A DNA stretch of 64,000 bases from Streptococcus himalayensis. Its GTDB lineage: Bacteria > Bacillota > Bacilli > Lactobacillales > Streptococcaceae. The stretch is from contig NZ_CP016953.1 in the NCBI RefSeq assembly GCF_001708305.1, positions 2,127,501-2,191,500 on the forward strand, in the 5' to 3' direction. A program made the translations under genes and the position numbers. Of the stretch, positions 22,219 to 59,869 are shown one piece after another (position 1 is the first letter of the stretch; every line of letters starts with the position of its first letter). Under the pieces are notes generated by a model. The model was not told the origin of the DNA. It made no database searches and worked only from the letters and a program-made list of their open reading frames with translations.

Positions 22219-24585
22219 TTATCGCTCTTCTTTTTTTAGGCCTGCAGCAGCTAAAGTAGCGGCTCCAAGCAATAAGCCCATAGCTGCGATAGAGCTTGCA
22301 CTTCCTCCAGTTGATGGCAGGAAGGTATTAGCATACTTAGCTTGACCCATGGAAGGAGCAGATTTTGCCCCTGAAGTTTGAGAGGATGCTGTTGCTAAAC
22401 CGCTAGCAGCAAGCGCACGGCCTTGGTTGCCTAGATTTTGAACCCCTGATCTACCTGGGTTATTTTGTAAACCGGCTGGTTTCAATACTCTTGTGCCCTG
22501 ACTTTGCGGAATAATCTGTGGATGAAGTCTACGATATTCGCTCTCCAGCTGTTTATAAGTCGTTTGAAGACGAATAAGTTTTTCACTTTCTTGTTCCAGT
22601 AAGGCTTGCTTAGCATCATAGTCAGTCTGAGCCTCTGCCAATGCCTTCACTGCTTTCGCATGGAGTAAAGGAGCCTGTTCTAATCTCGCAAGATAGTTCC
22701 TAGCTTCTTCTAGTTTCTGTTTAGCAGTTGCCAAATTCCCTTTGGCTTGCTCCAAATTTTTCTGCTTAGCAGCAAGAGTTGATTTCAAACTTGCTAATTG
22801 ATTTTTAGATTGCTCCAGATTTTTAAGCGCTGTTTCTAATTCTTTCTCTTTTGGAGCCAAATTCCGTTGAATAGATTGGCGGGCTACGTCCAACTTACCT
22901 TGTTTTTCAGTGGCTACTTGCTTCGCTTTTGCAAAAATAGCTTGAGCAGTCATCAATGCTGCTGTAGCTTTTTGGGTAGTCGCCACTTGATTATTCAAGC
23001 TCGATTGCAAATCTCTTAAAGTAGCTTTCTTCATATTGAGTGTAGATTCTTGATTGGTTTTTTGAACCTTCAACATTGCCAAATTATTTTTCAAAGCCGT
23101 GACTTGTGGGGATGGCGCTGTCGAAGAACCAGCATAATTTCGAAGCGCTTTTTCAAAGTCCTCAACCGTCATAAGCGTTCCATTAGCCAATCGTCGATTT
23201 ACATCAGAAACACTGTAAAAGGCTGCTTCTGCCGTACCATAAACATTACTGTAACGATTTGGTTGCGTATCATAGGCCGCAGACATCGTATTGACAGTGT
23301 TATTGACAATTTGCAAGTAGTGACCTACTTGAGCAAAAATTCCCATGCCAACTTTGTTCAAAATAGCATACGCATCAATTTGTCGTTCATCTGTCGGTAA
23401 GCCGTATTGGGCTGCATATTTTTGGTAGAGTGCCTTTTCATTGTACCAAAATTTAACCGCATCCTGTGGAGAGAATGAAATAGCAACATTTTCTCCATTC
23501 GCATACTTAAACATATGAGTTCCTGCTTTTTCAAAATAGCGCGTTTGAATTTGACTTCCAACATTTGCGTACGGATCCACCAATAATTCTGGAAGTCCTG
23601 CTCGCTTACGGTAGGCATTGATAGCCTTCATAACCTCAACAGCCTTTAAATTATTGGCCAAGGTTGCCGGGCTGTTCACGTCTGTACCGACTACAATCCC
23701 ATCTTCCTTTTGCCCACGTTGATAAATTCCTAGAGCCTTAGTTGCTTCAGCTTTCACATCAGCGTTTGCTCCATTTTTTTGTAAATGGGTCAAAAATTCT
23801 TGGTAAGTTGCTGTTTTTAAATCTACATGCCGAGTCGGAGTAGCCTGACTTTCTGCTTGTTTCAAAGCTGTTTCTGTCTGCTGGATGTTTTTCTCAAGAC
23901 TAGCCAGATTCTTCTCTCCTTCTCGGATTTCTTGAGTGGTTTGATTGATTTTTTCAGGAATGGTATGGCTATCTGTTTGAGCAGCTTTTAAAACAGCTGT
24001 TTTTTCAGCCACTTCTTTTTCAGCCTGAGCGACAGCAGCTTGAGCTTGTTTTAAGGCCTCCTCTTCTTCGTGAATTGGCTTCTTCGCTTCATTGACTGCT
24101 GTTTGAGCCATATCCACGAGGGACTCTTGACCGCTTACTACATTCTCTTCTTTGCTGACTTCCGTTTGAGCTGTTTCTACTTCAGTTTGAGCGATTTCGA
24201 CATTTGCTTCTTCCGTTGAAATCTGTGCTTCTAAAGCTGGAAGGCTATCTTTGGCTTCTTGAATCGTTGTTTCAGTTGCCTTGTCCAACAATTCTTTCGT
24301 ATCAGTTTCTTCTTTTGTTGCCTCATCAAGCATTTCTTTGGCTTGTTGACTCGCTTCTTGTGCTTTTTGAACAAGCTCTTCTTGATTTTCTGATTCTGTT
24401 TTTGCAGCTAAGACTGCTTCTTTCGTAACAGGTGTTTCTGCTGGTTTACTAGCCTTAGTTTCGGCTTGTTCTGCCATTCGTTTAGTAGCTTCTTCTGCCT
24501 TGACTTGCTGAGTCGTTGCAGCTGATAGAACCGTTGTCGCAGCTAAGCCGGTCACCACCATTGATTTTGTCAGTTTTTTATCCAT
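22219..24585 (-). CDS. LPXTG-anchored SEC10/PgrA-type surface protein with CAP domain
   Basis: A 788-aa cell-wall protein. The signal peptide ends near QVKAEE at about residue 30. Residues about 35-245 are Glu/Lys/Ala-rich coiled coil. A CAP/SCP-like domain follows (about 290-475) with AINAYRKRAGLPEL, GENVA and GHYLQIV. A second coiled coil runs to about 700. The C-terminus has sorting signal LPSTG at 756-760, a hydrophobic stretch and KKEER. The arrangement matches proteins labelled SEC10/PgrA surface exclusion, named from conjugative plasmids; chromosomal streptococcal members are probably adhesins. AGGAG precedes the start. It lies inside the segment bracketed by ISL3 copies. Confidence 0.88.
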   Translation of the reverse strand: MDKKLTKSMVVTGLAATTVLSAATTQQVKAEEATKRMAEQAETKASKPAETPVTKEAVLAAKTESENQEELVQKAQEASQQAKEMLDEATKEETDTKELLDKATETTIQEAKDSLPALEAQISTEEANVEIAQTEVETAQTEVSKEENVVSGQESLVDMAQTAVNEAKKPIHEEEEALKQAQAAVAQAEKEVAEKTAVLKAAQTDSHTIPEKINQTTQEIREGEKNLASLEKNIQQTETALKQAESQATPTRHVDLKTATYQEFLTHLQKNGANADVKAEATKALGIYQRGQKEDGIVVGTDVNSPATLANNLKAVEVMKAINAYRKRAGLPELLVDPYANVGSQIQTRYFEKAGTHMFKYANGENVAISFSPQDAVKFWYNEKALYQKYAAQYGLPTDERQIDAYAILNKVGMGIFAQVGHYLQIVNNTVNTMSAAYDTQPNRYSNVYGTAEAAFYSVSDVNRRLANGTLMTVEDFEKALRNYAGSSTAPSPQVTALKNNLAMLKVQKTNQESTLNMKKATLRDLQSSLNNQVATTQKATAALMTAQAIFAKAKQVATEKQGKLDVARQSIQRNLAPKEKELETALKNLEQSKNQLASLKSTLAAKQKNLEQAKGNLATAKQKLEEARNYLARLEQAPLLHAKAVKALAEAQTDYDAKQALLEQESEKLIRLQTTYKQLESEYRRLHPQIIPQSQGTRVLKPAGLQNNPGRSGVQNLGNQGRALAASGLATASSQTSGAKSAPSMGQAKYANTFLPSTGGSASSIAAMGLLLGAATLAAAGLKKEER

Positions 24586-44488: not shown

Positions 44489-45676
44489 CTAATTTTTGGT
44501 TAGTTTTCGTTGAATACCGGCCAAGAAAAAGACTAAAAGGAAAGCTGAGAGCACCAAGATACTTCCGAGTGCTAGAAAAGTAGGGGTAAATCCTAATCGC
44601 TCAATACACCACCCTGTCAACGGAAAAAGAACAATCATGCTCAGACTGAAAAACATAGCATTGATACTCAACATCGTCGCTCGAATTGAATTCGGTAGAT
44701 ACTGCTGGATATCATTGGATATAATAGGCATATAAAGAGCATAGAGAGCATTGCTCAGCAAATAAATGAACATAAAGACAAGCACCTGATTGGCAACGAC
44801 AGCGGTATAAAGCAAGCCTGTCAATCCAACAATCCACGGAAATAGTTGAAAGGAAGACCATTTCTTGCCCACTTGACTAGCGACATAGGCAGCTCCAATG
44901 TTGAGCCCGCTTCCGACAAGCATGAGGAAAGCAATCTGCCAACTGCTTAAATCTGGCAAGTGATTTTGATAGTAGAAATAAAACATACACATCGTAGCAC
45001 AAACAATCTGTCCAATCAAAAACCACCATAGCAGGGCAGAATTGGTCTTAAATTCTTTCAATACAGTGTTTACAATGCTAGAAAAGCTAACCCGCTCCTC
45101 TGTATAAGTTTTTCTATCTGGCTCTTTTAGAAGTGCAATCAAACAAATGGCACACAAGGAACAGGCAATCATCATCAGATAGGTCACTTCCAAATACCCG
45201 TGCACAAAAAATCCTGCCAGCACCGCTCCTAAAGACATCGTTGCCTCTGTCACGCCTGAAATGATACTCGAGAAAGTCAAATATCTTTCTTTCAAGCCCG
45301 CATCGACAGCTGAATCATAGAGCATGGCACTACTTGTTCCTGAATCAAAATTATAAGCCCAAGCATTAACCACCATAGCAAGAGCATACAGCCAAAAGTT
45401 CCCCTGAGCTAGCAACATAAGCATAGAAGAAACGATGGCGGCAAGACGCCCCAATATAAGATTGGCTTTATAAGAAAAACGATCAGCCAGCATCCCTGAC
45501 GGAATCTCCGACAAAAGACTAGTCCCATGAAAGATACTTTCCAAAAGACCTATTTCCAGCAAGCTCATCCCCTTTTGACTTAAAAATAAGACCCAAAAAG
45601 TCGTAATTCCAAAAAATGAGAACCATTCGACAGCATAAAGCAAAGGGATATTTTTTCGATAAGAAGATACACGCAT
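44489..45676 (-). CDS. Major facilitator superfamily transporter
   Basis: 395 aa, about twelve hydrophobic segments, with the MFS loop motif appearing as GMLADRFSYKANLILGR between helices 2 and 3 and a central cytoplasmic loop near 190-210. The start is ATG 45676, 7 bases after AGGAGG. Substrate unknown; the family includes drug exporters. Its -10 box TATAAT directly touches an 18-G/16-A homopolymer tract, so tract-length change should alter transcription. Confidence 0.87.
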   Translation of the reverse strand: MRVSSYRKNIPLLYAVEWFSFFGITTFWVLFLSQKGMSLLEIGLLESIFHGTSLLSEIPSGMLADRFSYKANLILGRLAAIVSSMLMLLAQGNFWLYALAMVVNAWAYNFDSGTSSAMLYDSAVDAGLKERYLTFSSIISGVTEATMSLGAVLAGFFVHGYLEVTYLMMIACSLCAICLIALLKEPDRKTYTEERVSFSSIVNTVLKEFKTNSALLWWFLIGQIVCATMCMFYFYYQNHLPDLSSWQIAFLMLVGSGLNIGAAYVASQVGKKWSSFQLFPWIVGLTGLLYTAVVANQVLVFMFIYLLSNALYALYMPIISNDIQQYLPNSIRATMLSINAMFFSLSMIVLFPLTGWCIERLGFTPTFLALGSILVLSAFLLVFFLAGIQRKLTKN

Positions 45677-45698: not shown

Positions 45699-45738
45699 AT
45701 TATACCCCCCCCCCCCCCCCCCTTTTTTTTTTTTTTTT
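45699..45738 (-). promoter_or_regulatory. Promoter with poly-A16/poly-G18 tract abutting the -10 box
   Basis: On the minus strand: 16 A (45723-45738), 18 G (45705-45722), then TATAAT (45699-45704). The tract fills the -35/-10 spacer region. AGGAGG and the start codon follow within 30 bases. Confidence 0.8.
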
Positions 45739-45916: not shown

Positions 45917-46477
45917 CTATTTTAGACTATCCAACTGCTGTTGCACAGCTTTTCCTGTCATAGCTCCTTCAAATTTTTGTGCAATGGTTCCGTCACGATT
46001 GATAAAAATATGAGTGGGGAAAGCTCTGACTTGATAGGATTTAAAAACCTGATCCTTGGTGTCAAACAAGACTGGATAAGTAATGCCTAGCTCAGCAGCT
46101 GCTTCTAATATTGGTTCCTTGGCCTGCTCCGCTGGTCGTTCATTTTCAAACTCTTTTTCAGCCGTGGACACGACAGATAAGAACACAAGATCGTCCTTTT
46201 CCTTCAGCCCTTGATAGACTTTTTCTAGCTCTGGGATCTCCTGCTTACAAGGCCCACACCAGCTGGCCCAAAGATTGAGGTAAACTTTTTTCCCTTTAAA
46301 ATCCGCTAAAGAGACATCCTTACCATCCTTATCCTTAATCGTAAAGGCTGGGGCTTCCTTGCCAACCATCTGCTGAACCGCAGGACTGTCAGAATGATTG
46401 GTTCCCCTCATTTCCCCACATGCTGCAAGAGTTAATAAAGATAAGCTCAATCCAATGTAGATCATTCCTTTTTTCAT
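45917..46477 (-). CDS. Thioredoxin-fold (TlpA/ResA-like) lipoprotein
   Basis: 186 aa. Signal peptide with lipobox LAAC (Cys20), then a TlpA-type fold with active site WCGPC (Cys74, Cys77) and cis-Pro region RAFPTHIF. Surface thiol-disulfide reductase, expected to receive electrons from CcdA and pass them to methionine sulfoxide reductase or other exported proteins. No ccdA lies beside this gene; the nearest is at 54753-55460. Paralogue of the lipoprotein at 53754-54398. Confidence 0.9.
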   Translation of the reverse strand: MKKGMIYIGLSLSLLTLAACGEMRGTNHSDSPAVQQMVGKEAPAFTIKDKDGKDVSLADFKGKKVYLNLWASWCGPCKQEIPELEKVYQGLKEKDDLVFLSVVSTAEKEFENERPAEQAKEPILEAAAELGITYPVLFDTKDQVFKSYQVRAFPTHIFINRDGTIAQKFEGAMTGKAVQQQLDSLK

Positions 46478-50107: not shown

Positions 50108-51802
50108 TTAAGCCATTGGAAAGGAAAGGGAAATCCTCGTATGACTACCTTGTTTCGAATCAATTTCCATGTGGTAGTCTTGTCCAAACTGTAGACGCAA
50201 GCGTTGGTCCACATTTTTTAAGCCAACACCACCGAGTTTTACAAGAAGATTTTCGGTCGTATCATGCGCAATAAAGCCACGACCATTGTCATAGATAGAC
50301 ACGACAAGAAAGCCGGCTCTTTCTTCAACGGACACACGCACCAAGCCCTGTTCCTTGATTTCTTTAATCCCATGGTAAATGGCATTTTCCACCAAGGGCT
50401 GCAAGACCAACTTGGGTAATTGGAAATCATCAAAACGCGTATCTTCTTCGATTTCATAGGTCAACTTGTACCCGTAGCGCTGTTTTTGGATAAAAAGATA
50501 CTGGCGAACATGGTCAATTTCATCTTTTAAGGCAATCTGTTCATTGCCTTGATTTAGTGCCAAGCGGAAATACTTGGCGAGCGATTTGGTCACCTCAACC
50601 ACTTTCTCACTATTATTAAACTCCGCCATCCAGACAATCGTGTCTAAGGTATTATACAGAAAATGAGGATTGATTTGACTAGAAAGGGCTTGTAGCTCGT
50701 ATTTGCGGACATTTTGCTCTTCTTCTTTAACGGCCAGCATCAATTTGTCAATCTGATCTAACATACGGTTAAATTGATGAGCCAAATCAACCAATTCTGG
50801 TGCCCCTTGCTCATTGGCTCGTAAACTGGCATTTCCATTTCCAATGGCCAAAATCGTTTCTTGTAAATTCCGCAAAGGCTTAATCCAATGCCGTAAAATG
50901 AACCAAATTCCTAAAAGACAAATTCCCAAGGCAACCAGCCCCGTTCCTACAAAAGATGTCAACACTTGACCTTGCAGTTGGTGAAGATTTTCCATAGAAG
51001 AAACCCCAATCATGACCCAATCACTCTGGGGGATCTGGTACTGATAAACATAGGAACTATCCTGGTCAACATAGCCATTCTTTTCTTGGATATAGGGTTC
51101 TAGGGCTTTCATCTCCTCACTAGATGAATAGACACTCTTCTTTGGATGATAGACAAATTCATGATTGCTATTGACAATAAAGGTAAAGCCCTTTTCTCCG
51201 AGCTGTAAGCTATCGAGATAAGCCGTCAAAGTATCATAAGCAATATCAAGACGGACAACCGCTAGATTGTCTCCTTTGCTATCCACCACTTCTTGGGTAA
51301 CAGACACCACCCATTTCTCATTGGCTTCAGAAAGATTTTGGCGTGCAGGAGTGACAACCGGCATGGCATGTTCATGAATAGCGGCTTGGTACCAAGCTTC
51401 TTTCATCATGTCACTGGAGGTTTTCATACTAACTGCTTCATCTGTTGATACTAGGTGGCCTGATTTAGTGACGAGAACGGCAGATACCAAATCACGATCC
51501 GTTGATAAAATCGTACCCAATAGTTTTCTTAACGCTCTCTCATTTTCTACCGTTGCATCTTCTGCGTAAGTCTTGACTAGTTCATGATTTGCCAAACTAC
51601 TGGTCGTTTCTTTTAATTTTTCCAAATAAGACTGGACAAATTGACCGCTTTGGGAAATGGTATGTTGTGTACTCTGCTCAGTCGTTTCTCGAATGACATC
51701 TGCACTCTTATAATAGTAACCAGCACCAACAATCCCAAGCAGTAATAACATGGTAACAGCCACATAAACCACTAACTGCACAAAAAGAGAAAACCGCTTC
51801 AT
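50108..51802 (-). CDS. YesM-type sensor histidine kinase
   Basis: 564 aa. N-terminal helix (residues 8-28), an extracellular dCache-like sensor (about 30-280), a second helix (about 283-303), a HAMP linker, and a His_kinase domain with INPHFLYNTLD as the phospho-acceptor region followed by an HATPase domain (VENAIYHGI, DNGRGF, GVGLKNVDQRL). Overlaps the regulator gene by ATGA. Downstream of MsrAB, so redox stress or exported-protein damage may be its signal, by inference from position. Confidence 0.92.
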   Translation of the reverse strand: MKRFSLFVQLVVYVAVTMLLLLGIVGAGYYYKSADVIRETTEQSTQHTISQSGQFVQSYLEKLKETTSSLANHELVKTYAEDATVENERALRKLLGTILSTDRDLVSAVLVTKSGHLVSTDEAVSMKTSSDMMKEAWYQAAIHEHAMPVVTPARQNLSEANEKWVVSVTQEVVDSKGDNLAVVRLDIAYDTLTAYLDSLQLGEKGFTFIVNSNHEFVYHPKKSVYSSSEEMKALEPYIQEKNGYVDQDSSYVYQYQIPQSDWVMIGVSSMENLHQLQGQVLTSFVGTGLVALGICLLGIWFILRHWIKPLRNLQETILAIGNGNASLRANEQGAPELVDLAHQFNRMLDQIDKLMLAVKEEEQNVRKYELQALSSQINPHFLYNTLDTIVWMAEFNNSEKVVEVTKSLAKYFRLALNQGNEQIALKDEIDHVRQYLFIQKQRYGYKLTYEIEEDTRFDDFQLPKLVLQPLVENAIYHGIKEIKEQGLVRVSVEERAGFLVVSIYDNGRGFIAHDTTENLLVKLGGVGLKNVDQRLRLQFGQDYHMEIDSKQGSHTRISLSFPMA

Positions 51803-52533
51803 CCCTGCTCTCCTTTTTTAAATTGACGAGGGGTCACACCCACGACCTGCTTGAAACGCTGCGAAAAATAATTCATATCTTCAAAGCCGACTTGCTCTGC
51901 TATTTCATAAATCTTTAAATCTGTTGTCAAAAGCAGTAACTTGGCTCTTTTCATCCGCTCCTGAATGAGATAGTCCTGAAAGGGCAGGCCCAGTTCTTTT
52001 TTCAAGACCACACTGAGATGCGAGGAGCTAAATCCCAAGTCCTGGGCTAGAGACTTGAGCGATAAATCCTGATCAGCTAGTCGTTCTTGGATGAGCTGGG
52101 CGAGACTGGAGGTTTCACTCTGTTCGACCAAATCGCTGATTTGTTGCCGCTTTTCTTCCTTATCTAGCTTCATCTTTACTTTGACGAGCATCTCCTCCAC
52201 GTCTGCCTTAGAAAAAGGTTTGAGAAGATAGTCATCTGCCCCCAATTTAACAGCTGAGAGGGCATAGTCAAAATCATCATAGCCAGTCAAAAACACAATA
52301 TGCGTCTCTGGATACTGCTCTCTAACGAGCTGTGCCAAGCGAATCCCGTTCATCTGAGGCATATTGATGTCGGTTAGTAGAATATCCGCCTGTTCTTTTT
52401 GGAAAAGTTCCCAAGCCTCCACACCGTTTTCTGCTTCTGCTAAAACTTCCATCCCCAATTTTTCAAAATCAAGCAAGGAGGCAATCCCTTGACGGACAAG
52501 GTATTCGTCTTCTACAATCATGAGTTTATACAT
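51799..52533 (-). CDS. YesN-type AraC-family response regulator
   Basis: 244 aa. Receiver domain with phospho-acceptor Asp55 (LLTDINMPQ) and Lys in LKPF; C-terminal AraC-type double helix-turn-helix (about 140-242) with LGFSSSHLSVVLKKELG and VGFEDMNYFSQRFKQVVGVTPRQF. Has its own extended -10 at 52563-52568 but is also in line with the msrAB transcript. Probable targets are the repair cluster upstream. Confidence 0.92.
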   Translation of the reverse strand: MYKLMIVEDEYLVRQGIASLLDFEKLGMEVLAEAENGVEAWELFQKEQADILLTDINMPQMNGIRLAQLVREQYPETHIVFLTGYDDFDYALSAVKLGADDYLLKPFSKADVEEMLVKVKMKLDKEEKRQQISDLVEQSETSSLAQLIQERLADQDLSLKSLAQDLGFSSSHLSVVLKKELGLPFQDYLIQERMKRAKLLLLTTDLKIYEIAEQVGFEDMNYFSQRFKQVVGVTPRQFKKGEQG

Positions 52534-52633: not shown

Positions 52634-53743
52634 TTATACATAGTCCAACAGATAGCCGTAGCCTTTACTTTCCATTTCTGCTTTTGGAATGAATTTGATT
52701 GAAAGACTGTTAATGCAGTAACGCAAACCACCCTTGTCTTTTGGACCATCGGTAAAGACATGCCCTAAGTGGGAATCCCCAACCCGGCTACGAACTTCCG
52801 TTCTCACCATGTTAAAGCTAGTATCATCCTTATAAGTCGCTACATCTGGGCTGATTGGGCGCGTGAAGCTTGGCCAACCGCAACCAGACTCATACTTGTC
52901 TTTGGAAGAAAATAGCGGCTCACCTGTCACGATATCCACATAAATCCCTTCCTCAAATTGATCCCAGTAGCGGTTTGAAAAGGCACGTTCTGTGTCATTT
53001 TTTTGAGTCACAGCGTACTCTTCTGCCGTCAACATTTTCTTAATTTCTTCATCGCTTGGTTTGTGGTACAAACTTTCGTCAATGACTGGATAGCTCGCTT
53101 GATTGACATTGATGTGGCAGTAGCCATTCGGATTTTTCTTGAGGTAGTCTTGGTGATATTCTTCTGCTTCTACGAAGTTTTCCAAAGCACCTTTTTCAAC
53201 AGCAAGGGGCTTATCTAATTTCTTTGCTTGCTCATCAAAGACTTCTTCAATGACCTTTGAATCCTCTTTATCCGTATAATAGACACCCGTCCGATACTGT
53301 GTTCCACGGTCATTTCCTTGTTTATTGACACTAGTCGGGTCGATAATGCGGAAATAATGAAGCAAAACTTCACGTAAGGAAATTTGGTTCTTGTCATAGG
53401 TTACTTTTACTGTCTCAGCATGGCCTGTTTGACTAATCAATTCATACTTGGTGGTGCTGCCTTTTCCATTGGCATAACCTGATACGGCATCTGTCACTCC
53501 TCCTACACGTGAGAAATATTCTTCAACGCCCCAGAAGCAACCGCCTGCTAGATAAATGTCGCGGAGCTCTTCTTTCATTGCTTTTTTCTCCTTTGGCTTG
53601 ACTTGGTTGACCTGACTGACAGCTGCCTCCTTAATATGGGCAGTTGCAGAAGACGATTGATTTCGATAGGCTCCAAAGACAATTAAGCCCAGCACTAGGA
53701 AAATCGCTCCGATGGTTAAGAGTACTTTCATTTTCCCTTCCAT
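52634..53743 (-). CDS. msrAB: Membrane-anchored peptide methionine sulfoxide reductase MsrA-MsrB fusion
   Basis: 369 aa with AGGAGG before ATG. An N-terminal membrane anchor (about residues 6-26) places it on the outer face. The MsrA domain (about 60-215) has catalytic Cys69 in [11 protein letters not shown]; the MsrB domain (about 225-365) has ESGCGWPSF and catalytic Cys343 in GLRYCINS. Repairs both S- and R-methionine sulfoxide in surface proteins. Reducing power should come from the thioredoxin-like lipoprotein and CcdA encoded just upstream. Confidence 0.95.
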
Positions 53744-53753
53744 GGGTCACCTC

Positions 53754-54398
53754 CTATTTAATCTCTTTTAATTTGCTTTCAATACCAGCCTTATCCATAA
53801 ATCCTGGATGAACATCCACTAAAACACCATCACTGCCAATAAAAGCAGAGGTTGGATAGGCACGAACACCGTATTCTTCTAAGAGTTTGCCACTTGGATC
53901 AAGGAGGACTGGCATGTGCTTGTAATCTAAGCCCTTGTACCAGTCTTTGAAATCTTCTGCAGATTTTTCACCCATGTGGTCTGGAGAAACGACGGTTAAA
54001 ATGACATAATCCTTGTCCGCTACCTGACTTGAAAGGTCATCTGTGTCACGTAAAGTTGATAGACAAATGGAACACCATGACGCCCAGAATTTCAGATAGA
54101 CTTTTTTTCCTTTAAAATCAGAAAGTTTATAGGTCTTGCCATCTACACCTTCTAAACTAAAGTCTGGTGCTGGTTTTCCGTCATTCATCATCTCTCCTTT
54201 CATACTTTCTTTGCCTGCCATCTTATCGTCAGACATCTTCTTATCATCCGACATCTTGTCCGTTTTCTGCTCCTCTTTTTTCATCATAGAGCTATCATCC
54301 ATTTTTTTATCTTCGTGTGCTGCCTGAGTGGAGCATGCAGTTAACATTCCTAAGCAAGCAAGACTTGCAATCAACAAACGACGTTTTTTCATCTTCAT
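53754..54398 (-). CDS. Thioredoxin-like lipoprotein with Met-rich linker (Etrx2-like)
   Basis: 214 aa. Lipobox LTAC (Cys22), then an unusual linker of about 48 residues rich in Met, Lys and Asp (nine Met), then a TlpA-like domain with active site WCSIC (Cys109, Cys112) and cis-Pro region RAYPTSAF. Expected to shuttle electrons from CcdA to MsrAB. The linker begins almost like the mature part of the small lipoprotein encoded immediately upstream (both contain DDSSMMKKE). The gene is 4 bases after that one and 10 before msrAB. Confidence 0.92.
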   Translation of the reverse strand: MKMKKRRLLIASLACLGMLTACSTQAAHEDKKMDDSSMMKKEEQKTDKMSDDKKMSDDKMAGKESMKGEMMNDGKPAPDFSLEGVDGKTYKLSDFKGKKVYLKFWASWCSICLSTLRDTDDLSSQVADKDYVILTVVSPDHMGEKSAEDFKDWYKGLDYKHMPVLLDPSGKLLEEYGVRAYPTSAFIGSDGVLVDVHPGFMDKAGIESKLKEIK

Positions 54399-54402
54399 CC
54401 TC

Positions 54403-54729
54403 CTAGTTTTTATCCTTCATTTCATCAGACATCTCTTCATCATCGGACATCTTGTCATCCGACATGTCATCGGCCATATCCTTTTTCTCCTCATCAGACA
54501 TCTTATCGTCTTTCATAGCGTCTTTATCAGACATTTTCTCGTCTTTCATAGCATCCTTATCGGACATTTTTTCGTCTTTCATCTCTTTCTTTTCATCAGA
54601 CATCTTATCCTCTTTTTTCATCATGGAACTATCGTCTGTTTTTTTCATATCTTCCGTCTTTTGGCTAGAGCATGCCGTTAAAAGACCAATAGAAAGTAAG
54701 CTCGCAAGCAGTAAAGTTTTTGTTTTCAT
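54403..54729 (-). CDS. Methionine-rich repeat lipoprotein, unknown function
   Basis: 108 aa. Signal peptide with lipobox LTAC (Cys20). The mature 89 residues are almost only Met, Lys, Asp, Glu and Ser, with 15 methionines and tandem copies of a unit like MSDKDAMKDEK. There is no folded domain. It lies between ccdA and the thioredoxin-like lipoprotein of a methionine sulfoxide repair operon. Inferred role: exported methionine reservoir or oxidant sink reduced by MsrAB, or a metal-binding tether. The sequence resembles the linker of the following gene. Confidence 0.85.
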   Translation of the reverse strand: MKTKTLLLASLLSIGLLTACSSQKTEDMKKTDDSSMMKKEDKMSDEKKEMKDEKMSDKDAMKDEKMSDKDAMKDDKMSDEEKKDMADDMSDDKMSDDEEMSDEMKDKN

Positions 54730-54752: not shown

Positions 54753-55460
54753 TTATCCAAAAATTTGTGCAAAAATGTTAAGATTTCCCAACATGAGTAA
54801 AATTCCCATCAAGATAATGATGATTCCACCAATTTTCTTTAAGGTGCCCATATAAGGCTTTATTTTGCTGAAGTAGCGTAACACAAAGGAGGACGCTAAG
54901 GCAACGAGCAAAAATGGAATGGCTAAGCCAAGAGTGTAAAGAAGCATAAGAACAGCTCCCTGCCAAGCTCCGTTTCCACCAGAAGCGGCAATGGCTAAAA
55001 CCGAACTCAAGACTGGTCCGATACACGGGGTCCATCCGAAGCTAAAGGTCAAACCGAGCAAGAAAGCATTGTAGAAATCATTGCGTTTTTTATCCTGCTT
55101 GAATTGGACACTCTTTTGCTTTTGTAATTGGGAAATATTGATAATTCCTATCTGGTGAATTCCCAAGATAATGACGATAGCCCCCAGAAGGTAACGGAAC
55201 CAAGCAGCATAGAGAAGATTTCCTAGAAAGCCTGCCCCATAGCCCAAGGTAATAAAGACCATGGATAGGCCAGCGATGAAAAAGAGGGTTTTCACAATGC
55301 CGTACCAGGCAATCTCAAAGCCTAAAAATCGCACCGTTCTTGGTTCATCTGAATCGAGTAAAATTCCTACATACACAGGTAACAGTGGTAAAATACACGG
55401 TGAGAAGAAAGATAAAATACCTGCTAGAAACACCGATACTAAAAATACAACTGAGGTCAT
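54753..55460 (-). CDS. ccdA: Cytochrome c biogenesis protein CcdA-like thiol transporter
   Basis: 235 aa from ATG 55460, 8 bases after AAGGAG; GTG and ATG codons a few bases earlier are too close to the ribosome site. Six membrane helices; paired redox cysteines in FFSPCILP (first half) and GWTPCIGPV (second half). Passes electrons from cytoplasmic thioredoxin to surface thioredoxin-like lipoproteins. First gene of ccdA, Met-rich lipoprotein, thioredoxin-like lipoprotein, msrAB. Confidence 0.93.
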   Translation of the reverse strand: MTSVVFLVSVFLAGILSFFSPCILPLLPVYVGILLDSDEPRTVRFLGFEIAWYGIVKTLFFIAGLSMVFITLGYGAGFLGNLLYAAWFRYLLGAIVIILGIHQIGIINISQLQKQKSVQFKQDKKRNDFYNAFLLGLTFSFGWTPCIGPVLSSVLAIAASGGNGAWQGAVLMLLYTLGLAIPFLLVALASSFVLRYFSKIKPYMGTLKKIGGIIIILMGILLMLGNLNIFAQIFG

Positions 55461-55560
55461 CGCCATCACTCCTTATCCTTTTGTAACTCTAGTATAATCC
55501 TCTTTGACTTTAAAAACTAGAGAATTTCATGCGGAAAAACTTGAATTTGATAAGGTAAAC

Positions 55561-57076: not shown

Positions 57077-59869
57077 TTAGACAGAATGTTTTTTCTTGTA
57101 GGCAAGAATAGTTCCAAGTACAACGAACAGTACCCCTCCTGAGGCAAAGAGAACCGATTTTTCTCCTGTTTTTGGTAAAATCTTCTGTCTCGCCACTTTC
57201 TTGCTCTCTGATTCTCCCTGATCTTTTACAGATGATGTATATAAGTCAGACTCTTTATGAGTTTTCCTTGCTTTACCTGATGAAAGAGAGGAGTCACCTA
57301 GACGAACAGCCTTCCATTCTTCCGATGAAGCAAAATTAAAGGATGCAGAAGTGCTAGATGAATTCGTTTGTTGAGAAGAGGCTCCCTCTTGAGATGAAGG
57401 CTCAGGCGAAATCAAAGTATCCTCCATTTGCCCTTCACCTTTTCCAAAAGTAATTTGCACAACCAAAGGATCGTGGTCTGACGCACGCCCGTCCTCTGCC
57501 ATAAAAGAAGAATTCACATGTACGGCGTCAAAAGCTACTTTGTCAGCAATATTTTTAGACACTAAAATATTATCCAGACTCTGCTGATTGCCTCTAAAGA
57601 AGTAGGAATAGCGATCTCTAAAATCATGACCAGACAAAAGATTGACCAAGGTATCTCCTTCAAGCGCTTGAATAGTCTGCGAAAATTCAAAATCATTAAA
57701 ATCACCTGTCAAAACAAATTTTAGATTTGGATTTTGTGCTAATCCTTCTTGGACAAATTGATTTAAGATTCTTGCTTGTTCAATTCGAGCAGCCTGCGAA
57801 TGTTCTAGTGCTGGCTGACTAGCTCCGTATAAGGAATCATCTCCTCGTTTTGATTTCAAGTGATTCGCGATAACAACCACGCGCTCTCCCTTAAATTCAA
57901 ATTCAGCTGCCAATGATTTGCGGACATTTGTAAAAGCTGGATTGGTCGGATCAATACGAGACGGATTTTTCTCTAAACTTCCATTTACAAAACGTGCTGC
58001 TTCCTGACTACCACCGATTGCCTTATCTACCAAAGTCACTCGAGCTGGATTGTAGAGAAAGGCAACGCGGATATTTGCCCCTGGTTTACCGCCATCAGCG
58101 TTATTTTCTGGCGTCACTTCGACATACTTATAGGACGGCCCGCCCAATTGACGAATCTTTTCACTCAAGCGCGCTCCACTTTTGACACCGCTGACTGTTC
58201 CATCATCAATTCCTCCGTTATCATCTTGAACTTCAATCAAAGACACAATATCTGGGCTATGAATTTCATGAATAAGAGAACGAGCAATTTTTTCCACCTT
58301 GTCCTCAGGCGTTTCTTTAGCATCGCCATTGGCAGAAAAGTTTTCAATATTGTAAGACGCCACCAAAAGTTTGTGCTCCTCTGGAAGCAAAGTCGAAACT
58401 TCCCGTTCTAAGCCACCATCCATCTTTTCAGGAAGGTTGCCAGCTGCATCCACCTTATAGGCACCGTAGCTATAGGTCACTGTTCCTTTAATATTTTCTG
58501 TAAAATAGTCCTTAGCTTTGGCACGATAACGTCGATTGCCAACCAAGATACCTACAACTTCTGTATTTGGATAATCAGCATGAAGACTCACACCATCTGC
58601 ACTATTGAGTTCTTGCTCATGATAGCTTTGTGGCAAAACATAAATCTCACCGTGAAGTTGTGGCCCTAACACACGTGGCTTTTCTACTTCGACCAGCATC
58701 CCTTCCAAACTTTCCCAGAAATCAATCGCATCTTCTTCTGGTTGAAATTCTGTCAAGCTATCATTATCAATATTTTTTCTTGGAATTTTTCGATCACGGT
58801 CAAGCATAAGAGCTTTGGGAAGGTCAGCTACACCAATTTTTTGAATATGTTCTGATTTCAACTGCGTAATCGTCAAATCAGTCTCATCTTTATCCGCATA
58901 GCCGTCTCCTGTCTGCTCAAGAACTTCTCCGATTACTTCTAGCTGATCACCGACAGTTACCGCCTCTTTACTAACTACATACAGTCCGTCTGATGTCTTA
59001 TCATTTCCATCTGGATGAAGATCTTGAATATAGAATCCTTTTTTGCCATCTACTTTCGTAACGACAACATCTTTGATCTGCACTTTCTGACCCACTAACG
59101 GCGAAGTATGGGATTCTCCTTGAATCTCACCGATATTTGCAACTGTGCGAACCATAGGAAGATTAGAGTCGTTATCTCCAAGAGCGGCAATATCTTCTAA
59201 TCGATAAGGTTTTAGTTCTAAATGCCCTTTATTAGCATAAAGAATCCCCTTCACAGAAATCTGATCACCATCTTTGATTTTGGCTGAAACATCTGAAAAA
59301 GTTGCCCCAGAGCGATTATCAACAAAGACAGGTAGCGTTAAACCAGCTTGATCTGTAATTGTAAAGCTACTATTTTGGTATTTCCCAACGGATTTTAAAT
59401 TTGAAACTGTAACATTTTCGAGTGCAATATAGCTTCCTTGCAGCTCATCTTTCACATCTGCCAAAGTTTTTAGACTGGCTTCCACAGGATGTCCATTAGA
59501 CAGGATCTGGGCATCTGTAACCGTAGTCAACTGCAGAGCCCCACTGTATTCCTCAACCCTACCCGTTAAGCGTACACGTTCCCCTTTTTCAACCCCTAAT
59601 GAATCTTTTGGATAGATAAATAGGCCTTGTTGATTGTCTGCTTGAACGAAGAAACTATTGCCACCCCAAGCGTTAACATCGCTGACCACAAGTCCTTCAA
59701 TCGTTGTTTGATCACCAACGACGAGCTGACTTCGGTCAAAAGTTGTATCACTTGTCACCATCTCCTCTGCCTGCACCTGCACAGGTTCTGACACAGCATA
59801 AACCGAAGCAGACAGAGCCAAGCCTAAGCTGACACCGTATAGCGCCCGCATCCAATACTTCTTTTCCAT
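57077..59869 (-). CDS. Cell-wall-anchored extracellular DNase (SsnA/SWAN-type, LPKTG)
   Basis: 930 aa. Signal peptide cleaved near VQAEE (about 35). Two OB-fold-like nucleic-acid-binding regions (about 40-340), then an endonuclease/exonuclease/phosphatase domain (about 500-810) with VASYNIENF, SLIEVQD, NHLKSKRGDD, LTGDFNDFE and the catalytic end ASDHDPL. The C-terminus has a Ser-rich linker, LPKTG at 898-902, a hydrophobic helix and KKKHSV. Matches S. suis SsnA and S. sanguinis SWAN, nucleases that cut extracellular DNA and neutrophil traps. Monocistronic. Confidence 0.9.
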   Translation of the reverse strand: MEKKYWMRALYGVSLGLALSASVYAVSEPVQVQAEEMVTSDTTFDRSQLVVGDQTTIEGLVVSDVNAWGGNSFFVQADNQQGLFIYPKDSLGVEKGERVRLTGRVEEYSGALQLTTVTDAQILSNGHPVEASLKTLADVKDELQGSYIALENVTVSNLKSVGKYQNSSFTITDQAGLTLPVFVDNRSGATFSDVSAKIKDGDQISVKGILYANKGHLELKPYRLEDIAALGDNDSNLPMVRTVANIGEIQGESHTSPLVGQKVQIKDVVVTKVDGKKGFYIQDLHPDGNDKTSDGLYVVSKEAVTVGDQLEVIGEVLEQTGDGYADKDETDLTITQLKSEHIQKIGVADLPKALMLDRDRKIPRKNIDNDSLTEFQPEEDAIDFWESLEGMLVEVEKPRVLGPQLHGEIYVLPQSYHEQELNSADGVSLHADYPNTEVVGILVGNRRYRAKAKDYFTENIKGTVTYSYGAYKVDAAGNLPEKMDGGLEREVSTLLPEEHKLLVASYNIENFSANGDAKETPEDKVEKIARSLIHEIHSPDIVSLIEVQDDNGGIDDGTVSGVKSGARLSEKIRQLGGPSYKYVEVTPENNADGGKPGANIRVAFLYNPARVTLVDKAIGGSQEAARFVNGSLEKNPSRIDPTNPAFTNVRKSLAAEFEFKGERVVVIANHLKSKRGDDSLYGASQPALEHSQAARIEQARILNQFVQEGLAQNPNLKFVLTGDFNDFEFSQTIQALEGDTLVNLLSGHDFRDRYSYFFRGNQQSLDNILVSKNIADKVAFDAVHVNSSFMAEDGRASDHDPLVVQITFGKGEGQMEDTLISPEPSSQEGASSQQTNSSSTSASFNFASSEEWKAVRLGDSSLSSGKARKTHKESDLYTSSVKDQGESESKKVARQKILPKTGEKSVLFASGGVLFVVLGTILAYKKKHSV

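Follow-up and report, generated by a model that had tools for sequence, protein, structure and literature searches.

The Met-rich lipoprotein gene and its neighbours

The window analysed here is a stretch of 64,000 nucleotides from the Streptococcus himalayensis contig NZ_CP016953.1, and all coordinates given are positions within it. It harbors, on the minus strand, a small gene for a methionine-rich lipoprotein directly downstream of ccdA and directly upstream of the genes for a thioredoxin-like lipoprotein and a methionine sulfoxide reductase, followed by a putative two-component system:

54753..55469, minus strand: ccdA, membrane electron carrier (DsbD_TM match, 5.7e-18)
54403..54729, minus strand: Met-rich lipoprotein gene, 108 amino acids, ATG start; other streptococci carry orthologues at the corresponding position
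54673..54729, minus strand: lipoprotein signal peptide, residues 1-19, ending at the lipobox LTA-C (from the sequence)
54406..54672, minus strand: mature part, 89 residues with 15 evenly spaced Met, D/K/M/S/E making up 81 of the 89 (from the sequence and a spacing test)
54493..54615, minus strand: 33-bp tandem repeat, 3.6 copies, within the mature part (repeat search)
53754..54398, minus strand: tlpA, TlpA/Etrx1-type thioredoxin-like lipoprotein with the active site WASWCSIC (Redoxin match, 1.2e-21)
54180..54335, minus strand: Met-rich linker of TlpA, 9 Met in 52 amino acids, related to the Met-rich lipoprotein (alignment score against shuffles)
52634..53743, minus strand: msrAB, fused methionine sulfoxide reductase (MsrA 3.2e-56, MsrB 1.2e-47) with an N-terminal hydrophobic segment recognized by eye
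51799..52533, minus strand: AraC-type response regulator adjoining msrAB (domain match)
50108..51802, minus strand: dCache/HAMP histidine kinase, the regulator's partner (domain match)

An earlier note on this DNA had described a lipoprotein whose mature part of 89 residues contains 15 Met, built from tandem repeats and located between ccdA and a thioredoxin-like lipoprotein with msrAB following. The open reading frame with its LTAC lipobox, whose lipid-anchor Cys is residue 20, the DNA repeat (period 33, 81% matches) and the domain matches of the neighbours all bear this description out. The mature protein is composed of D23 K21 M15 S11 E11 A3 T2 C1 Q1 N1 and thus contains neither aromatic residues nor L, I or V. 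Its Met content of 16.9% (15 of 89), compared to 2.6% in the 35 open reading frames of the window longer than 250 amino acids (binomial P about 1e-8), is the highest among the ATG-started open reading frames of at least 60 amino acids; the runner-up, at 23358-23618, was rejected as it lies out of frame within the open reading frame of a 788-amino acid surface protein. The start codon is preceded by AAGGAG, 23 bp separate the gene from ccdA, and its stop codon overlaps the ribosome-binding sequence AGGAGG of tlpA.

In Streptococcus gordonii and Streptococcus pneumoniae, CcdA proteins, thioredoxin-like lipoproteins and MsrAB have been described, in the parts of the papers available to us, as a surface reducing pathway (PMC7034828, PMC3914529). 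The cluster in the window combines ccdA, a CxxC thioredoxin-like lipoprotein and msrAB, the same genes with the same domains as CcdA1-Etrx1-MsrAB2 of S. pneumoniae and CcdA1-Sgo_1177-MsrAB of S. gordonii, and thus has the gene content of an Etrx1/MsrAB2 pathway. A profile built from 13 TlpA/Etrx1-type proteins found 4hqs ("thioredoxin family protein") as the best solved chain (E 1.2e-86). The S. himalayensis genome encodes two MsrA-domain proteins, one being the MsrAB of the locus, and the MsrP-family domain PF00174 was not found in this genome with a model that matches 9 of 14 control genomes. Elsewhere in the window, at 45917-46477, lies a second TlpA-like lipoprotein with the active site WASWCGPC, a linker with 2 Met in 21 residues and no adjoining msrAB, an SdbB/Etrx2-like paralogue.

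The available text on the S. pneumoniae and S. gordonii pathway describes no Met-rich component (PMC3914529, PMC7034828), and among the listed titles and beginnings of abstracts in the open-licence literature no mention was found of a streptococcal msrAB locus encoding a Met-rich lipoprotein. The S. gordonii numbering may leave room for such a gene: according to the part of the paper accessible to us, SGO_1180 and 1181 form the first two-component system, followed by CcdA1 and then by 1177, leaving one of the tags 1178 and 1179 over after CcdA1 (PMC7034828). Our guess is that the left-over tag belongs to the Met-rich lipoprotein gene.

The regulator, together with its kinase, adjoins msrAB in 17 of 20 streptococcal loci as it does in the window, which would fit a role of the Met-rich chain as an oxidation sensor whose sulfoxide is read by the two-component system to regulate the locus. 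However, kinase and regulator are also present at loci lacking any Met-rich module (e.g., L039-L045), and we regard this role as highly improbable.

Constraint, methionine spacing and metal-binding motifs

The Met-rich lipoprotein gene is a conserved gene under purifying selection. Among 15 ungapped orthologues of the S. sanguinis/S. cristatus type, one further row of 106 amino acids (L082) being left aside as it could not be aligned by position, pN/pS of the mature part was 0.060 (codon bootstrap 0.029-0.101), and of the 17 Met-holding columns 14 were invariant. Conservation of the Met columns did not significantly exceed that of the remaining residues, the pN ratio being 0.52 with an interval of 0-1.77. 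The test thus indicates a constrained protein and not specifically constrained methionines.

The Met residues are spaced with marked regularity. In the window protein the coefficient of variation of the spacing was 0.32 as opposed to 0.82 in shuffled sequences, with none of 500 shuffles as low, and 10 of the 14 spacings measure 4-6 residues; a spacing of 5 is the commonest in most orthologues. Likewise, for 31 of 33 distinct standalone sequences at most 6 of 500 shuffles were as regular. The motifs MXM and MXXM were depleted in these 33 sequences (13 observed versus 132 expected) and do not occur in the window protein at all. Being distinct yet related, the 33 sequences do not provide independent spacing and motif numbers.

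Extracellular Met-rich segments often bind Cu(I). The chain might accordingly belong to a copper-binding lipoprotein acting through methionine thioethers, and an off-locus MXKDX match in one genome (G004) indeed corresponds to a His/Met-rich stretch in front of a putative heavy-metal ATPase. However, Cu(I) Mets motifs consist of clustered MXM/MXXM, often with His or Cys, and the 33 sequences do not show this pattern, as MXM/MXXM is depleted in them as described above, a single His occurs in 2935 residues and Cys is confined to the lipobox. In addition, the neighbouring genes belong to the Msr pathway. The motif depletion test thus does not support the copper-motif reading, and copper binding appears very unlikely.

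The lack of a significantly higher conservation of Met, together with the repeat structure, the low complexity and a length that varies between species, would be consistent with a hydrophilic surface spacer in which Met is a mere by-product of codon-repeat expansion. The pN/pS of 0.06, the regular Met spacing with its avoidance of MXM/MXXM and the recurrence of Met-rich linkers within different surrounding residues, acidic and DEM-type in Clostridia and lysine-rich in Streptococcus, argue against such a spacer, which we consider quite improbable.

The Met-rich module as a separate lipoprotein or as a TlpA linker

The linker between lipid anchor and thioredoxin domain of TlpA, overlooked in the earlier note, aligned to the Met-rich lipoprotein with a score of 140, which was reached by none of 500 shuffles (mean 65, maximum 94). 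Linkers that are likewise rich in Met, but differ strongly in sequence, are present in msrAB-adjacent TlpA proteins of S. gallinaceus, Peptostreptococcus canis, Dethiosulfatibacter and Clostridia genomes, and in a record labelled Streptococcus sp. 263_SSPC, a label that is doubtful because, in the tree described below, the TlpA of this record falls beside a genome from a different family. The Met-rich module is therefore sometimes separate and sometimes fused to TlpA, the predicted electron donor of MsrAB.

To compare linkers, 189 TlpA domains were clustered at 85% into 49 clusters, 41 msrAB-adjacent and 8 not. The comparison covered proteins with the active-site pattern and linkers of at least 8 residues, and excluded L001-L030, L130, L189-L271 and non-adjacent rows with less than 600 bp of downstream sequence; its output lacks L085 (13 Met) and shows L087 with a shortened linker (5 Met in 41 when complete). 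Linkers with at least 13.7% Met occurred in 12 of the 41 adjacent clusters, spanning Streptococcus, another family of the order and Clostridia, as opposed to none of the 8 non-adjacent ones (highest value 10.8%); with so small a control set the difference was not significant (Fisher p 0.086, Mann-Whitney p 0.18). In a tree built from 73 representatives of the msrAB-adjacent domains, where few columns leave many forks open, the presence of any Met-rich module required 11 changes, at least 5 of them forced by well-supported branches. Thus, the module seems to come and go. In addition, a locus from another family of the same order (L278, genome G621) encodes an msrAB-adjacent TlpA that shares 79% domain identity with that of the window and has a Met-rich linker of its own, and it also contains a separate Met-rich open reading frame, which suggests horizontal transfer of the locus.

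Within the genus, a TlpA-domain match was obtained in 92 of 118 Streptococcus genomes, and the following counts refer to the 79 strongest of these 92 loci (E 7e-45 or better), the other 13 being left out. A linker was counted as rich at 6 Met or more, so that the 5-Met linker of G080 ranks as poor although the profile matches it. The standalone lipoprotein was present at 25 of the 79 loci, all 25 of which also possess both ccdA and msrAB. Three of the 25 additionally carry a Met-rich linker, leaving 22 of the 79 loci with a separate chain and a linker of fewer than 6 Met. A further 6 loci have the rich linker only, and 48 have neither module, 14 of these also lacking ccdA within 1.5 kb. As 48 of the 79 loci do without any Met-rich module, MsrAB does not need one.

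These counts bear on another role of the chain, that of a shield or docking arm that mainly holds MsrAB and TlpA close together or guards the pair against oxidation, instead of reducing the overall oxidant load. Such an arm would agree with the occurrence of the module as TlpA's own linker in several lineages and with the relatedness of the two Met-rich stretches in the window. However, the 22 loci combining a separate chain with a Met-poor linker indicate that covalent attachment is not needed, and we rate the docking or shielding role as unlikely.

A profile built from nine members, supplied by nine of the genomes that were then searched, yielded 46 matches at E 1e-6 or better in 29 of the 118 Streptococcus genomes. 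By comparing the places by eye, 45 of the 46 were assigned to the msrAB locus, where they are either a gene of their own or the first part of tlpA; in this sample of the genus, the module is therefore tied almost exclusively to the locus. The off-locus match, in G117, turned out to be a different lipoprotein with a charged head and was rejected. Among the best 80 (79 distinct) of 458 named loci, the standalone gene was identified in 16, belonging to S. cuniculi, S. sanguinis (5 loci), S. cristatus (2), S. parasanguinis, S. australis, S. rubneri, S. ovuberis, S. massiliensis, a genome labelled S. gallolyticus BSJ31 and two Streptococcus sp. The S. mitis, S. oralis, S. infantis and S. pseudopneumoniae loci among these best 80 lacked it and have linkers with 0-4 Met. 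As the named loci were ranked with a query that itself has a Met-rich linker, they were not used for frequencies.

Protein database searches gave one weak match with the single sequence and 32 proteins with the alignment, many of which are truncated or short and come from short contigs. One database protein of 153 amino acids (P0017), on a 1.4-kb contig, consists of the beginning of the Met-rich lipoprotein followed by C-terminal sequence of CcdA; this is probably an assembly chimera, although it could be a real fusion. A plasmid search for the Met-rich lipoprotein gave no match, and among 106 pattern matches in viral contigs there was no relative. In 53 phylum-wide MsrAB stretches no TlpA-type thioredoxin domain was detected in the open reading frames at E 1e-5, and these stretches were therefore unusable as a control. 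Searches with the thioredoxin domain gave 6 matches at E 1e-22 or better, the window's own included, in 398 genomes of the phylum, and matched 22 of 148 genomes of the order, 7 of them outside the genus. The TlpA type of the locus thus seems uncommon outside Streptococcus.

Relation to MrpX and a possible rechargeable oxidant sink

The author of the earlier note was not aware of any function described for a protein of this kind. As written, this is not supported, since MrpX of Azospira suillum and BcrX of Brucella, Met-rich peptides whose genes accompany a methionine sulfoxide reductase system, have, according to the accessible parts of the papers, already been proposed as sacrificial hypochlorite scavengers (PMC8315932, PMC4623255). 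The principle of a methionine sink has thus been put forward for Gram-negative bacteria, and what is new here is the streptococcal form with MsrAB. That MrpX falls into the family TIGR02953 we infer from the Brucella paper, in which, in the part available to us, BcrX is called an MXKDX protein homologous to MrpX.

Applied to the 118 Streptococcus genomes, the NCBIfam model TIGR02953 (penta_MxKDx) gave 18 matches in 18 genomes, 17 of them to the Met-rich lipoprotein gene, and in none of the genomes was the cut-off of 41 bits passed; the model also matched none of the 14 control genomes, which therefore provide no positive control. As single proteins, the orthologues of S. ovuberis (L055) and of the S. 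cristatus type (L006) scored 32.8 and 19.8 bits, respectively, while that of S. cuniculi (L051) was not matched. The window protein gave no match at E up to 10, and the S. himalayensis genome none at E up to 0.001. The only off-locus match in the 118 genomes, in G004 (L311:2139-4294), falls in an extremely His/Met-rich N-terminal stretch of what by eye is a putative P-type ATPase for heavy metals, whose sequence is spread over two overlapping frames.

The window protein has the layout typical of TIGR02953, an export signal and, behind it, short repeats of about five residues made up of Met and charged amino acids. As with MrpX and BcrX, it is small, predicted to be exported, rich in Met within charged repeats and encoded with a methionine sulfoxide reductase system. 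Unlike them, it is lipid-anchored and occurs in a Gram-positive species, the reductase encoded with it is MsrAB with TlpA and CcdA instead of MsrPQ (YedYZ), and its regulatory neighbour is a two-component system and not an ECF sigma factor. As the orthologues match TIGR02953 only below the cut-off, they are best read as working like MrpX with a different reductase, and not as members of the family. A related concept is that of Bacillus cereus, where, in the text accessible to us, recycling of exoprotein methionines by MsrAB has been proposed as an antioxidant system (PMC5526929). Both systems would join methionines of exported proteins to MsrAB; however, in B. cereus these are general exoproteins and MsrAB is cytoplasmic, whereas the streptococcal locus encodes a dedicated Met-rich lipoprotein next to an exported MsrAB.

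The earlier note had proposed that a surface reservoir of Met soaks up hypochlorite or peroxide and is recycled by MsrAB through CcdA. The comparisons made here, namely the constraint on the gene, the linkage of 45 of 46 matches to the locus, the related stretch in TlpA and the resemblance of orthologues to the MrpX/BcrX model, strengthen this proposal, and on balance we consider it probable, with some reserve, that the anchored Met chain is an oxidant sink recharged by MsrAB, TlpA and CcdA. Counting against it are the 48 streptococcal loci without a module, the Met columns whose conservation does not stand out, the non-significant association of rich linkers with msrAB and the missing TIGR02953 match of the window protein. 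The reading of the chain as a sink and substrate fits best because a chain of evenly spaced Met is predicted at the same membrane and is encoded in the same cluster as the reductase or fused to its donor. The lipid-anchored and probably disordered chain would expose its evenly spaced methionines to the solvent, where they, instead of essential surface proteins, would become oxidised. MsrAB, exported and encoded in the same cluster, could then reduce the sulfoxides back to methionine, with electrons presumably passing from CcdA via the TlpA/Etrx1-type lipoprotein to MsrAB, and such a cycle of oxidation and reduction would render the chain a rechargeable sink of potential benefit to the cell.

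Met reacts fast with hypochlorite and slowly with H2O2. Hypochlorite-type oxidants would therefore be the likelier targets, and the peroxide part of the earlier proposal appears less likely, although S. gordonii mutants of the CcdA1-Sgo_1177-MsrAB pathway are, in the available part of that study, H2O2-sensitive (PMC7034828).

If this interpretation is right, some Gram-positive commensals and opportunists facing oxidants from neutrophils or peroxidases would possess a catalytic Met sink at the membrane surface, with sink, enzyme and electron supply encoded together. This would explain a role of surface MsrAB besides repair and would add a component that is absent from the accessible descriptions of the streptococcal MsrAB pathway. 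The loci would also offer a natural series, present or absent and fused or separate, for studying methionine as an antioxidant in vivo. More tentatively, and somewhat short of what we would call likely, the scattered occurrence in Bacillota may reflect a recurrent strategy in which extracytoplasmic MsrAB is equipped with a dedicated methionine battery, as its own lipoprotein or as a TlpA linker, that has been gained and lost repeatedly and, using an altogether different reductase, converges on the principle of MrpX in Gram-negative bacteria. A TlpA with the battery built in would then itself supply MsrAB with a substrate and trap oxidants.

Two further features of the window were observed outside the locus. 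At 45704-45738, about 18 C are followed by about 18 T, which on the minus strand reads as poly-A and then poly-G directly before TATAAT, shortly upstream of an MFS-like gene at 44489-45676; the tract has the appearance of a promoter spacer of variable length, as used in phase variation, or of a weak spot of the assembly. In addition, positions 57077-59869 encode, by their translation, a surface protein of 930 amino acids with an LPKTG-type sorting signal, which we take to resemble a secreted nuclease.
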